Below, in pieces: positions 4,913 through 12,783 of a stretch of 57,990 bases of DNA (positions are counted from its first letter, which is position 1; each line of letters begins with the position of its first letter). Source of the stretch: Thiobacillus sp. Its GTDB lineage: Bacteria > Pseudomonadota > Gammaproteobacteria > Burkholderiales > Thiobacillaceae. The stretch spans positions 1-57,990 of the forward strand of contig JANJXF010000142.1 of the NCBI GenBank assembly GCA_024709165.1. Reading direction: 5' to 3'. The notes beneath the pieces are model-generated. The model ran no database searches and was not told the DNA's origin. It was given only the letters and a program-made list of their open reading frames with translations. A program made the translations under genes and the position numbers.

Positions 4913-6088
4913 ATGCGCAAGTTCTGGCTGCTCTTCGCCCAGGCCACCACAGTGGCCCTCGGCGTGTTGTTCGTCATCGCGCTCTTCAAGCCGGACCTGC
5001 TGCGCTGGCAGGCGCCGCAACCCCGCCCCGGCGTGACCATCCGTCAGGCGCCGGCAACGCCGGCGGCGCCGCTGCCCCTCACGGAATCGTTCGCGCCGGC
5101 GGCGCAGCGGGTGATCCCCGCGGTGGTCAACGTGTTCACGCAGCAGAAAGTGCGCGCCCCCGCGGTGCAGGACCCGATCTTTCGCTACTTCTTCGGCGAC
5201 CGCCTGGACGGACGACCGCGCCAGGCCTCCAACCTGGGCTCGGGGGTCATCGTCAGCGCGGAGGGCTACGTCCTCACCAACTACCACGTGGTCGAAGCCG
5301 CCGACGAGATCCAGGTGGCACTGGCCGACGGCCGCACCTTGCCCGCGCGCGTGGTCGGCGCCGATCCGGAAACCGACCTGGCGGTGCTGAAGATCGACGC
5401 CGGCAACCTGCCGGCAATCACCTTCGCCCAGGCCGACACGCTCAAGGTGGGCGACTGGGTGCTGGCAGTGGGCAATCCGTTCGGCGTCGGACAGACGGTT
5501 ACCGCGGGCATCGTCAGCGCGCTCGGGCGCACCCAGCTCGGCATCAACACCTTCGAGAACTTCATCCAGACCGACGCGGCGATCAACCCCGGCAACTCGG
5601 GTGGTGCGCTGGTCGATGCCGCCGGTAACCTGGTGGGCATCAATAGTGCCATCTATTCGCGCACTGGCGGCTCGCAGGGCATCGGCTTCGCCATTCCCGT
5701 GAGCATCGCGCGCCAGGTGATGGAGCAGATCATCCGCGAAGGCGGCGTGACGCGCGGCTGGGTCGGCATCGAAGTGCAGGATCTCACACCGGAGCTGGCC
5801 GAATCATTCAGCCTGAAGAACGCTCAGGGTGCACTGATCGCGGGCGTGTTGAAGGGCGGGCCGGCCGACAGCGGCGGCGTGCGCCCGGGCGACGTCCTGC
5901 TCGCGGTGAACGGCAGGCGAGTCGCGGATTCAGCGTCGCTGCTCAACCTGATCGCCGCGCTCAAGCCAGGCGAGACCGCGCACCTCACGGTGGCGCGCAA
6001 GCAGCAGTCGCTCGAGGTGACGGTACAGGCGGGCCGCCGCCCGGTACAGCGTTCGCCGTTGCCGCAAGCCGACCCCGAACTCAACTGA
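4913..6088 (+). CDS. Membrane-anchored HtrA/DegS/AlgW-type serine protease with one PDZ domain
   Basis: N-terminal TM, LTNYHVVEAADEIQVALADGR, TDLAVLKID, INPGNSGGALVDAAGNLVGIN catalytic motif, C-terminal PDZ. Confidence 0.93.
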   Translation: MRKFWLLFAQATTVALGVLFVIALFKPDLLRWQAPQPRPGVTIRQAPATPAAPLPLTESFAPAAQRVIPAVVNVFTQQKVRAPAVQDPIFRYFFGDRLDGRPRQASNLGSGVIVSAEGYVLTNYHVVEAADEIQVALADGRTLPARVVGADPETDLAVLKIDAGNLPAITFAQADTLKVGDWVLAVGNPFGVGQTVTAGIVSALGRTQLGINTFENFIQTDAAINPGNSGGALVDAAGNLVGINSAIYSRTGGSQGIGFAIPVSIARQVMEQIIREGGVTRGWVGIEVQDLTPELAESFSLKNAQGALIAGVLKGGPADSGGVRPGDVLLAVNGRRVADSASLLNLIAALKPGETAHLTVARKQQSLEVTVQAGRRPVQRSPLPQADPELN

Positions 6089-7883
6089 GCGCGTCCAGCA
6101 GGCGCACGCGGCTGGGCCAGACAAGCGGGTCGCGCGCCAGCTCCGGCAGCGTCCATGCTGCGGCTTCGCGTGCGAGTTTCCGCAGTCTCGCATCGCCCAG
6201 GCGCAGGCTGGACCGGATCAGCACATCGGCCGGCGAAGGCTGCGCACCGTCAGGCAGGCCCGCGGCCGGCGTACTGGTCGCGAGCAGCGGCGCCGCTTCG
6301 TGGCGCCAGCCCGTCTCGCGCCAGAATGTCTGCCAGGCAACGCGCGCCAGGCGCCGCGCTGCCGCACGTGATGCCCGGTTGCCGGTGGCATCGGCGTGGT
6401 CGAGCAGACCCGCCACGGCCCAGGCGTAATCCTCCAGTTCCGCTCCAGCGACCACTTTGCCGCCGGCTGCGGCCTTGACCAGTTCCCCGCCCGGCGCCAT
6501 GCGGCCAAGCAGGAAGCGCTGCAAGCGATCGGCGGCGCGCCGGTATGCGGGATCGAACGCCGCTGCCTGACTCAGTGCCGACAGAGCCAGGCCGTTGAGA
6601 CCCGCGTTCATCTTGGTATCGCGCGGCAGGTGCCGTGTCTGGCGCAACGGCAGCAGAACGACCGCAGCCTCCCTGAGGAGCGATCGCTCCCGCGCAGTCG
6701 GCACACGATATTCTGCCGGTAGGTAACCATGATCGAAGACGCGCGCGGCATCCAGTCGCCACACCCGTCGCGCAGCGGCGTAGGCCGGGGCCGACAGATG
6801 GCGTTGCAGTGCCGCGGGCTCCCACAGATAGAACGCGCCTTCGCGCCCCTGAGCATCGACAGCGGACGTGCTGGCGTAGAACCCGCCCCCCGGATCGGCC
6901 AGATCACGCAAGACGAAATCGAGTGTGGCGCGCGCCACGTCGCGATAACCGGGTTCGCGCAGCACCGCCGCCGCACGCAGGTAAAGCGAGGCCAGTTGCG
7001 CGTTGTCGGCAAGCATCTTTTCGAAATGCGGGGTGTCCCAATTAGGATCGACGGTGTAGCGGAAGAAGCCGCCGCCGATATGGTCGCGCAGGCCGCGCGC
7101 GGCCATCTGGTCGAGTGTGAGACGGAGGAATTCGGCCAGCGTGGCTTCAGGATTCCGCGCCTGGCGTTCGAGCAGGGCATCGAGCTGCGGCGCCATGGGA
7201 AACTTTGCGACCTGGCCGAAACCGCCGTGCATGAGATCGGCCTCACGCCACGCGGCGTCGAGAAACTGTCGCCACGCCTCTGCGCCACGTGCAGCGGTGA
7301 GCGGCGCGGCGCGCGGTGGGGCGGACGCCGGCGGGGTGGCGCGGCGCGCCAGCGCGCGGATCGCGTCGGGCTCCGCAGCCCAGCGCGCCGCGATGCGGTC
7401 GAGTACCGCGGCAAGGTCCTGCGGCGGGACGTATAAAATGACGGACACGGGATAGCCGTCGGGTGTCACGAACGCATTGAGCGGCCAGCCGGCCACGCCA
7501 ACGAGGCGGGCGGCGAACGCCTGCAAGGCGTCGTCCAGCCCACCGTGCAATTCGCGGTCGACCTTGACGGGTATGAAGGCGTCGTTGAGCCGCGCCGCGA
7601 TTCCGCTGTTGCGATAGCTCTCTCGCTGCATGACGTGGCACCAGTGGCAGGCGAAATAGCCGATGGAGACGAACAGCAATTTGTTCTCGCGTCGTGCGCG
7701 CGCGACCGTTTCGGCGTTCCACTCCTGCCACGCCACCGGATCGCCGGCGTGCAGGGCGAGATACGGTGACGCGTGGCCGGCAAGCCGGTTCGACATGGGC
7801 TGCGCCCCCGCGGCCGGCAGCAGGCAGACCAGCAGGAGAATACCGGCAAGCATGCGTGCGAATTCAGGCCGGTCGCTTTGCAT
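6081..7883 (-). CDS. Secreted thioredoxin-domain (DUF255 / YyaL / SPATA20-like) protein
   Basis: Signal peptide MLAGILLLVCLLPAAGAQP then NRLAGHASPYLALHAGDPVAWQEWNAE...LLFVSIGYFACHWCHVMQRESY...PVKVDRE; six-hairpin-like C-terminal region. Confidence 0.88.
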   Translation of the reverse strand: MQSDRPEFARMLAGILLLVCLLPAAGAQPMSNRLAGHASPYLALHAGDPVAWQEWNAETVARARRENKLLFVSIGYFACHWCHVMQRESYRNSGIAARLNDAFIPVKVDRELHGGLDDALQAFAARLVGVAGWPLNAFVTPDGYPVSVILYVPPQDLAAVLDRIAARWAAEPDAIRALARRATPPASAPPRAAPLTAARGAEAWRQFLDAAWREADLMHGGFGQVAKFPMAPQLDALLERQARNPEATLAEFLRLTLDQMAARGLRDHIGGGFFRYTVDPNWDTPHFEKMLADNAQLASLYLRAAAVLREPGYRDVARATLDFVLRDLADPGGGFYASTSAVDAQGREGAFYLWEPAALQRHLSAPAYAAARRVWRLDAARVFDHGYLPAEYRVPTARERSLLREAAVVLLPLRQTRHLPRDTKMNAGLNGLALSALSQAAAFDPAYRRAADRLQRFLLGRMAPGGELVKAAAGGKVVAGAELEDYAWAVAGLLDHADATGNRASRAAARRLARVAWQTFWRETGWRHEAAPLLATSTPAAGLPDGAQPSPADVLIRSSLRLGDARLRKLAREAAAWTLPELARDPLVWPSRVRLLDALS

Positions 7884-7927: not shown

Positions 7928-8626
7928 TCAGATCCGCACGTAAGTCCAGCCTTGCTGCAGGCGGTCGACGATCTCGCCGACGGCCGTGGGCGCGGTGCGG
8001 ACCGCGGGTAACAGAACGACACGCTCGCCCTCGTCGGCGAGCCGGGCGACCGTCTGGCCGCAAGCGACGAACTGCAGGCTAACGTGACGTGCGTGCAGTT
8101 GCGCGATACGCGCCGCGTGGGGGCTGACGCCGGCACGCAGCAGGCCGATACCCTGACTGTTCGCAACGATCTCAACCTGCATTTGCCGGCCCTGCCGTTC
8201 CGCCTCGTCGAGCAGCCGTTCGGCTGCGTCGAGCGCGGCCTCCATGCGTTGCGGTTCCGCGCTGTCGAGATGCAACAGCATCTTGCCCTGCCCTGCCGGC
8301 GCCACGATGCGGGCGAGATGAACTCCATCCGGTGCATCATCGAGGCCACGCAGCACCCAACCCGCCGTCAGACCGGTCGCAAGCATGACAGCTGCGGCGG
8401 CCAGGCCCGCCAGCCGCCTGCGCGACGCACGATCGGCCCGCCCGGCGGGCGGCGGAGGTTCGGCGTAGGCTGTACGCACCATGGACTGCAGGTTGCGCAG
8501 CTCGCACACGCGCGCAGCGAGCGACACATCCTCTTGCATGCGGGCGATGAGGCGTTCGCTTTCGTCGACGGCGAGTTCGCCATCGACGAAGGTATGCAGG
8601 GTTTCGTCAGAAATTTCGCGGGTCAT
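7928..8626 (-). CDS. Anti-sigma factor: cytoplasmic N-terminus, single TM, C-terminal periplasmic DsrE-like domain
   Basis: MTREISDETLHTFVDGELAVDESERLIARMQEDVSLAARVCELR, TM RLAGLAAAAVMLATGLTAGWVL, then KMLLHLDSAEP...VEIVANSQGIGLLRAG...VSLQFVACGQTVARL; overlaps the sigma factor stop (ATGA). Confidence 0.85.
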   Translation of the reverse strand: MTREISDETLHTFVDGELAVDESERLIARMQEDVSLAARVCELRNLQSMVRTAYAEPPPPAGRADRASRRRLAGLAAAAVMLATGLTAGWVLRGLDDAPDGVHLARIVAPAGQGKMLLHLDSAEPQRMEAALDAAERLLDEAERQGRQMQVEIVANSQGIGLLRAGVSPHAARIAQLHARHVSLQFVACGQTVARLADEGERVVLLPAVRTAPTAVGEIVDRLQQGWTYVRI

Positions 8627-9184: not shown

Positions 9185-9211
9185 GGACGCGTGAGGTGGT
9201 CCTAATATTCC
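9185..9211 (-). promoter_or_regulatory. Putative ECF-sigma promoter for sigma/anti-sigma/thioredoxin operon
   Basis: Minus strand GGAAT-attaggaccacctcacg(17)-CGTCC directly upstream of the sigma gene. Confidence 0.6.
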
Positions 9212-9233
9212 ATGAAAAAAGCACCCCGCCCAT

Positions 9234-9260
9234 GGAATAAGCGTTTCATGAGAAACGTCC
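9234..9260 (+). promoter_or_regulatory. Putative ECF-sigma promoter for secreted DsrE gene
   Basis: Plus strand GGAAT-aagcgtttcatgagaaa(17)-CGTCC; same half-sites and spacing as the divergent element. Confidence 0.6.
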
Positions 9261-9302
9261 TTCAGAACAGGGCGCCCCGCCCAATGCCAACCGGAGAACA
9301 CC

Positions 9303-9779
9303 ATGAAATGCAACTTGCCCCATCCTGCCTCGTTTGCCGCCGCGCTGCTGCTCGCCGTGACTGCGCTCGCAAACACTGGCGCGACCGCCGATCCCACGCC
9401 GTCCCGCCCGGCCGAACTCGCCGCAGCGCAGGAAAAAGTCGTCTATCACGTCAACGACGCCACGCGCGCACGCATGGCCATGCGTAATGTGCAGAATCAC
9501 ATCACCGCCGATCCCGACGCGAAGATCATCGTGGTCACGCATGGCGCGGGCATCGACTTTCTGCTCAACGGCGCAAAGGACGACAAAGGCCAAACGTATG
9601 AGGCGCAGGTCGCGGGCCTGAAGGAGCGTGGCGTCGGGTTCCGCGTCTGCCGCAACACCCTCAGGGGACGTAACCTTGACGACGACGCCGTCCTGTTCGA
9701 TGCCGAGGTGGTTCCTTCCGGCGTCGCGGAGATCGGCCGGCTACAGGCCAGAGAGGGCTTCGTCTACCTCAAACCCTGA
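9303..9779 (+). CDS. Secreted DsrE-family protein
   Basis: Signal peptide; KVVYHVNDATRARMAMRNVQNHITADPDAKIIVVTHGAGIDFLLNG...YEAQVAGLKERGVGFRVCRNTL; FxxC cysteine typical of DsrE/TusD fold; RBS GGAG upstream. Confidence 0.85.
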   Translation: MKCNLPHPASFAAALLLAVTALANTGATADPTPSRPAELAAAQEKVVYHVNDATRARMAMRNVQNHITADPDAKIIVVTHGAGIDFLLNGAKDDKGQTYEAQVAGLKERGVGFRVCRNTLRGRNLDDDAVLFDAEVVPSGVAEIGRLQAREGFVYLKP

Positions 9780-12273: not shown

Positions 12274-12783
12274 ATGAGACGCCTGTTCGCCGCATCACTT
12301 GCGCTGTGGCTCGGTTTCTTTCCGCCGGCGCAGGCCGGAGGGCGGTACGTCGCCCCGCCCTACGCACCGGCGAAGGCGGTATTCGATATTTATCTCGACG
12401 ACCCGGCCAAGCTCGGCAGCGCGCTCTTCTGGGTACGCGCCCTGCTCAATCCGCTGGTGGAAGCGCCCTACGGCTACGCACCTGAGGATCTCAACATCGT
12501 GGTAGTCATTCACGGCACCGAGATCGTCACGGTGGCGAAGAAGAACGAGGCGAAATACCGCGACGTCGTCGAGCGCATGCGCTATTACGCCAGCCTCGGC
12601 GTCGCATTCAAGGTGTGCGGCGAAGCCGCTGCCGACTACGGCTACGGCTTGAAGGATTTTCAGGATTTCGTCGAGGTGGTTCCCAACGCCATTACCGAAC
12701 TCGTCCACTGGCAACAGCAGGGCCATGCGCTCGTCTTGCCGCAGATCATGAGCAAGCGATTCAGCGTGGAGGAGATTCGGTAG
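12274..12783 (+). CDS. Secreted DsrE-family protein (second copy)
   Basis: Signal peptide MRRLFAASLALWLGFFPPAQA; NIVVVIHGTEIVTV...MRYYASLGVAFKVCGEA; RBS AAGGAG upstream. Confidence 0.8.
   Translation: MRRLFAASLALWLGFFPPAQAGGRYVAPPYAPAKAVFDIYLDDPAKLGSALFWVRALLNPLVEAPYGYAPEDLNIVVVIHGTEIVTVAKKNEAKYRDVVERMRYYASLGVAFKVCGEAAADYGYGLKDFQDFVEVVPNAITELVHWQQQGHALVLPQIMSKRFSVEEIR

Follow-up and report, generated by a model that had tools for sequence, protein, structure and literature searches.

The interval between an ECF sigma factor gene and a divergent dsrE gene in a Thiobacillus genome carries two back-to-back promoter elements of the same kind, which are conserved in nearly all orthologous loci. 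We propose, with a probability of about 0.8, that the sigma factor drives both its own operon, as a leaderless mRNA, and dsrE through these paired promoters, and that its anti-sigma factor, which carries a periplasmic DsrE-fold domain, senses periplasmic sulfur within a feedback loop. At the level of sequence, this proposal draws on the conservation of the promoters, the gene layout, domain homology, an aligned invariant cysteine and the regulon sites across the genus. The features are listed in Table 1, and the window is the whole stretch of DNA analysed, 57,990 nucleotides. An earlier sequence-only reading had paired the promoter elements and predicted one regulon; the DsrE domain of the anti-sigma factor and the wider regulon go beyond it.

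Table 1. Features of the sigma/dsrE locus in window coordinates
Feature	Position	Strand	Evidence
Secreted thioredoxin-fold DUF255 protein (Thioredox_DsbH)	6081..7883	-	Pfam PF03190; synteny
Membrane anti-sigma factor (predicted), 232 aa	7928..8626	-	ATGA overlap with sigma gene; position, topology
Periplasmic DsrE-fold domain of the predicted anti-sigma factor, residues ~111-232, invariant Cys189	7931..8296	-	hhalign, AlphaFold2, Foldseek
ECF sigma factor, 184 aa	8623..9177	-	Pfam Sigma70_r2 and Sigma70_r4_2 above cut-off, no sigma3; TIGR02937
Predicted transcription start, first base of sigma ATG (leaderless mRNA)	9177	-	CGTC-to-ATG distance
-10 box CGTC, sigma-operon promoter, 17-nt spacer	9186..9189	-	Sequence; conserved
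-35 box GGAAT, sigma-operon promoter	9207..9211	-	Sequence; element in 62/63 orthologous loci
-35 box GGAAT, dsrE promoter	9234..9238	+	Sequence; element in 60/63 loci
-10 box CGTC, dsrE promoter, 17-nt spacer	9256..9259	+	Sequence; conserved
Predicted 5' leader of dsrE mRNA	9268..9302	+	Start placed by 8-9 nt rule; GGAG ribosome-binding site 9293-9296
Periplasmic DsrE-family protein, 158 aa, N-terminal signal-like segment, Cys116	9303..9779	+	Pfam PF02635; alignment

Paired promoter elements between the sigma operon and dsrE

Read directly from the sequence, the minus-strand element consists of GGAAT (9211-9207), 17 nt and CGTCC (9189-9185), and the plus-strand element of GGAAT (9234-9238), 17 nt and CGTCC (9256-9260). 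The positions, strands and 17-nt spacers previously claimed for this pair were all exact, as was the perfect 9-bp inverted repeat said to hold the -35 halves, TATTCCATG (9206-9214) and CATGGAATA (9231-9239). The loose pattern GGAAT-N16..18-CGTC was not rare in the window (4 matches, 2.34 expected); a back-to-back GGAAT-N17-CGTCC pair occurred in none of 300 simulated windows, generated by a first-order Markov model from the dinucleotide content of the real one.

The sequence-only reading had made its regulon depend on conservation of the motif upstream of orthologous operons, and the motif was conserved. Among 63 orthologous loci (30 from the same genus and 33 from the genome collection, most of the latter with both promoters), 62 contained the sigma-directed element and 60 the dsrE-directed element, each with a 17-nt spacer. 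Because some loci represent one genome present in two collections, 44 distinct sequences on each side give a fairer figure; a locus was counted if it had GGAAT and CGTC, which fixes these letters in advance but leaves the fraction of loci free. The conserved core was TGGAATA(A)-N15-CGTC, and the freely varying positions extended it to TGGAATAA on either side. The claimed CGTCC half-site held in part: CGTC was conserved, but its last C was not, being T in 48-70% of orthologues. Named records of Thiobacillus and Hydrogenophilales, T. denitrificans among them, contained orthologues of the locus, with orn, cytochrome c, phhB-like and DegQ-like genes kept around the locus and spacers and leaders varying in large part. 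Both promoters were also present in another family of the order (L212), and the motif preceded the sigma gene, together with a DsrE-domain anti-sigma gene, at this locus and in Rhodocyclales and Ectothiorhodospiraceae. Chance, or shared ancestry without function, would fit the commonness of the loose pattern alone, but is refuted for practical purposes by the persistence of the boxes in 44 distinct sequences whose spacers vary, by their conservation in other families and by the enrichment of targets described below.

The inverted repeat is no more than the two -35 boxes in head-to-head orientation, and its ATG/CAT extension was not conserved on the sigma side. We judged it very unlikely that TATTCCATG/CATGGAATA is instead an operator for a dimeric repressor or activator. 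The perfect 9-bp arms in the window, the near-constant gap between the boxes in Thiobacillus and the conserved spacer positions 12-14 would agree with an operator, but outside TGGAATA the arms are variable, each is followed by CGTC at a spacing of exactly 17 nt, single copies exist away from the locus, and four loci with ~72 extra bp between the boxes keep both promoters. From the geometry of two -35 boxes lying so close, two holoenzymes may hinder one another.

Several minor features of the promoter region were also observed. The 17-nt spacers (9190-9206 and 9239-9255 in the window) were partly conserved in Thiobacillus, and CCA occupies positions 12-14, counted from the first G of GGAAT, in both of them but not in distal promoters. 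The distance separating the -35 boxes hardly varied in Thiobacillus. The four loci with the longer interval (L026, L031, L035, L036), ~72 bp more between two retained promoters, contained an additional and weaker copy directed towards sigma (GGAGT-N17-CGTC in some), which looks like a promoter duplication.

The sigma gene product contains sigma2 and sigma4 domains only, as expected of an ECF sigma factor. Its ATG (9177-9175) lies 8 nt after CGTC, in agreement with the gap of ~8 nt noted earlier, and the distance from CGTC to the in-frame ATG was exactly 8 nt in 31 of 45 distinct Thiobacillus loci and 7-10 nt in 39 of them. In S. meliloti ECF promoters with a marked start, transcription begins 8-9 nt behind the -10 box (PMC6180224). 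The constant distance of 8 nt strengthens the suggestion that the sigma mRNA is leaderless, and we predict from it a conserved start at the A of the ATG or at most one or two bases away from it. Since the CGTC-to-start distance seems longer in several loci elsewhere in the class, leaderlessness may be a Thiobacillus trait. The dsrE side would have room for a leader of ~34 nt, an asymmetry with the sigma side. The DUF255 gene, which starts 44 nt behind the anti-sigma gene and is not always adjacent in other loci, is probably part of the sigma/anti-sigma operon.

The predicted anti-sigma factor and its DsrE-fold domain

The gene directly behind the sigma gene encodes a protein with one transmembrane segment, the arrangement of class I membrane anti-sigma factors, and the sigma and anti-sigma genes overlapped by ATGA (or GTGA) in the loci checked. 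The protein comprises an N-terminal domain, helical in the AlphaFold2 model, a single transmembrane segment (hydropathy peak at residues 72-93) and a C-terminal domain. Domain matches in its relatives were weak (zf-HC2 in 11 of 22, RseA_N in 2 of 22). Position, topology and these matches suggest that the 232-aa protein is an anti-sigma factor.

Pfam and NCBIfam returned no match for the window's anti-sigma factor, so that its DsrE domain went undetected, and profile and fold comparison were therefore used. The profile of the anti-sigma relatives matched that of the divergently encoded DsrE proteins (hhalign 96.7%, E 3e-10) and that of the DsrE-like protein MTH1491 (PDB 1l1s; E 4e-11). In the AlphaFold2 model, 10-residue blocks beyond residue 110 had pLDDT values of 79-96, for the most part 81-96, with residues 58-104 below 50, and Foldseek matched the model to 1l1s with a probability of 1.00 and a TM score of 0.88 (normalised by target length). 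Cys189, the only cysteine of the periplasmic part, was invariant and aligned with Cys116, which is likewise the sole cysteine of mature DsrE. The C-terminal domain belongs to the DsrE/DsrF fold by its sequence profile, its modelled structure and its conserved cysteine.

The fold and the cysteine position of the DsrE protein and the anti-sigma domain are common to MTH1491 and ST0148 (2pd2). Known DsrE/DsrF members are free-standing, whereas this Thiobacillus copy follows a transmembrane segment in one protein with a predicted anti-sigma domain. Known membrane anti-sigma factors follow the same plan of cytoplasmic anti-sigma domain, membrane helix and sensor domain, with no mention of a DsrE sensor domain in the published text compared. 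DsrE3A of Metallosphaera cuprina, a DsrE-family protein, is reported to take thiosulfate on a cysteine; it is alike in accepting a sulfur group on cysteine, but is an archaeal carrier protein and no regulator (PMC4175335). The DsrE-domain anti-sigma factor is a probable sensor for which we found no description in the open-licence literature, where the papers that contain both DsrE and anti-sigma look unrelated, one of them matching through DsRed; as the search covered this literature only, the absence is not proof of novelty.

Promoter class and regulon

The boxes GGAAT (-35) and CGTC (-10) were mapped for sulfite-responsive ECF sigma factors of S. meliloti and St. novella and used to build the ECF26 promoter profile (PMC6527743), and in S. 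meliloti the promoter of rpoE4 itself, GGAATAAGCGAGGCAGCTCGCTCGTC, agrees with the window elements in both boxes and in its 17-nt spacer (PMC6180224). The sequence-only reading was right to take the boxes as ECF-type, but the promoter class itself is already known, because published ECF26-type promoters have these boxes and this spacer. The window elements fit the ECF26 pattern (GGAATA / CGTC or GT). The window sigma factor was 36% identical to the ECF26 member RpoE6, a separate Thiobacillus paralogue was 46% identical to it, and the outgroup pSymB RpoE9 (ECF41) gave a weak 32% match. ECF26 systems have a COG5662-type anti-sigma factor with an RsiW-like C-terminal domain; since this domain has a DsrE fold here, we describe the sigma factor as ECF26-like in its promoter and do not file it as an ECF26 member.

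RpoE4 and RpoE1 of Sinorhizobium meliloti and SigE of Starkeya novella share the GGAAT/CGTC consensus (PMC3511301, PMC6527743, PMC6180224), a membrane anti-sigma gene adjoining the sigma gene and a small sulfur-linked regulon, and RpoE4/RpoE1 also show the autoregulation proposed for the Thiobacillus system. The targets differ, being sulfite dehydrogenases in those systems and DsrE, SoxB-like and TPR proteins in Thiobacillus, and so does the anti-sigma C-terminal domain, reported as RsiW-like for ECF26-type systems.

A genome-wide scan for the motif, as suggested earlier, found exactly two occurrences of GGAATA-N16-CGTC in the window's genome (2.65 Mb as searched, 87% complete), both at the sigma/dsrE locus. 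The regulon in this genome appears to be just the sigma operon and dsrE. In agreement with this count, a distal DsrE protein of another species, used as query, matched nothing in the genome beyond dsrE and the anti-sigma domain, and no distal dsrE relative was found.

Across 56 Thiobacillus genomes, GGAATAA-N15-CGTC had 152 matches, against 65 with the boxes one base further apart. Among the matches listed, 34 of 55 sites away from the sigma locus preceded dsrE (22), soxB-like (7) or TPR (5) genes, compared with 0 of 20 sites in the shifted-spacing control (Fisher p ~1e-6, a guide only, since sites taken from related species lack independence). Three reference proteins came from the sites themselves, and p was still ~1e-6 with those sites left out. 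One of the 22 distal dsrE genes was a distant relative (25% identity). The SoxB-related products scored far below the TIGR04486 cut-off and are thus SoxB-like only; at the seven loci they are secreted, metallophosphatase-like proteins, and the TPR-repeat proteins behind the motif at five loci are also secreted.

An ECF26-type paralogue is encoded in many Thiobacillus genomes, behind a small secreted-protein gene, and the paralogue operons that were read had GGAATAA-N15-TGTT upstream, with the same -35 box and a different -10 box. The paired elements of the window could be true ECF promoters read mainly by another sigma factor, for example such a paralogue, with the local sigma factor as one of several users. 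The paralogue's -35 box, GGAATAA, would allow it to share distal sites, and cross-activation between RpoE1 and RpoE4 is known from S. meliloti (PMC3511301). We consider this improbable: TGTT stands at the -10 of the paralogue's promoter, the motif accompanies the DsrE-anti-sigma locus throughout the class, and the paralogue was not found in the window's genome (87% complete), where the only other match was an rpoE-like factor (28%). Assignment of the distal sites to the paralogue was likewise rejected, given TGTT rather than CGTC at the -10 of its operon and its absence from the window's genome at 87% completeness.

DsrE-domain anti-sigma relatives were present in 63 of 274 genomes sampled across the class. 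GGAAT..CGTC preceded the sigma gene in 23 of 29 class-wide loci inspected, 19 of them with exactly 17 nt between the boxes, and many had a second element pointing the other way, towards a dsrE or soxB-like gene. A DsrE-like match on a Rhizobium plasmid had no sigma gene nearby.

A proposed sulfur-responsive circuit

Autoregulation within one regulon, as the sequence-only reading had predicted for the sigma and dsrE units, is the best reading, because the motif is conserved upstream of orthologues (62/63 and 60/63), with a wider spread, and matches the mapped ECF26-type consensus. From position and conservation, we infer that the local sigma factor recognises both back-to-back promoters. It would drive its own operon, encoding sigma factor, anti-sigma factor and DUF255 thioredoxin-like protein, as a leaderless mRNA, and the divergent periplasmic DsrE gene as a leadered mRNA. 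At rest, the anti-sigma factor would hold the sigma factor at the membrane. A periplasmic reactive sulfur species (sulfite, thiosulfate or sulfane sulfur) would bind, or be handed to, Cys189, and its presence on the DsrE domain would release the sigma factor. Once induced, the DsrE protein, whose cysteine occupies the equivalent position, would bind or remove the sulfur species and so close the feedback loop. Sigma factors that share this promoter consensus respond to sulfite (PMC6527743).

The anti-sigma DsrE domain might instead serve for protein interaction, the homologous secreted DsrE protein pairing with it and controlling sigma release. Their homology in the hhalign comparison favours such pairing, as does the formation of homo- and hetero-oligomers by DsrE-fold proteins (DsrEFH, PDB 2hy5). 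Both proteins keep one cysteine at the same place, however, which points to chemistry, and we regard pairing as somewhat unlikely; it would be compatible with sensing and is not exclusive of it.

Beyond Thiobacillus, we tentatively suggest a widespread, undescribed class of proteobacterial sigma/anti-sigma pairs, in which a periplasmic DsrE-fold domain might sense reactive sulfur through one cysteine and control free-standing relatives of itself, a carrier turned sensor in a feedback loop, possibly accompanied in Thiobacillus by the conserved leaderless sigma mRNA. How sulfur oxidisers such as Thiobacillus sense extracytoplasmic sulfur species is poorly known, and the anti-sigma factor with its DsrE domain and one cysteine offers a concrete candidate sensor. 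The promoter consensus is strict enough for reading regulons from genomes, and the resulting target list contains periplasmic DsrE and SoxB-like proteins of unknown function. As the architecture occurs in about a quarter of the sampled class genomes, a test in one strain would inform many.

Two further DsrE-related observations were made. A second DsrE-family gene in the window (12274-12783, plus strand) has no GGAAT/CGTC promoter upstream and is a conserved neighbour in most Thiobacillus loci. We take DUF1791, the type to which Snov_0966 of Starkeya novella belongs, to be a DsrE-like family. Snov_0966 was suggested as the membrane anchor of the Sox complex (PMC3797975), and is worth re-reading in light of DsrE-domain anti-sigma factors.
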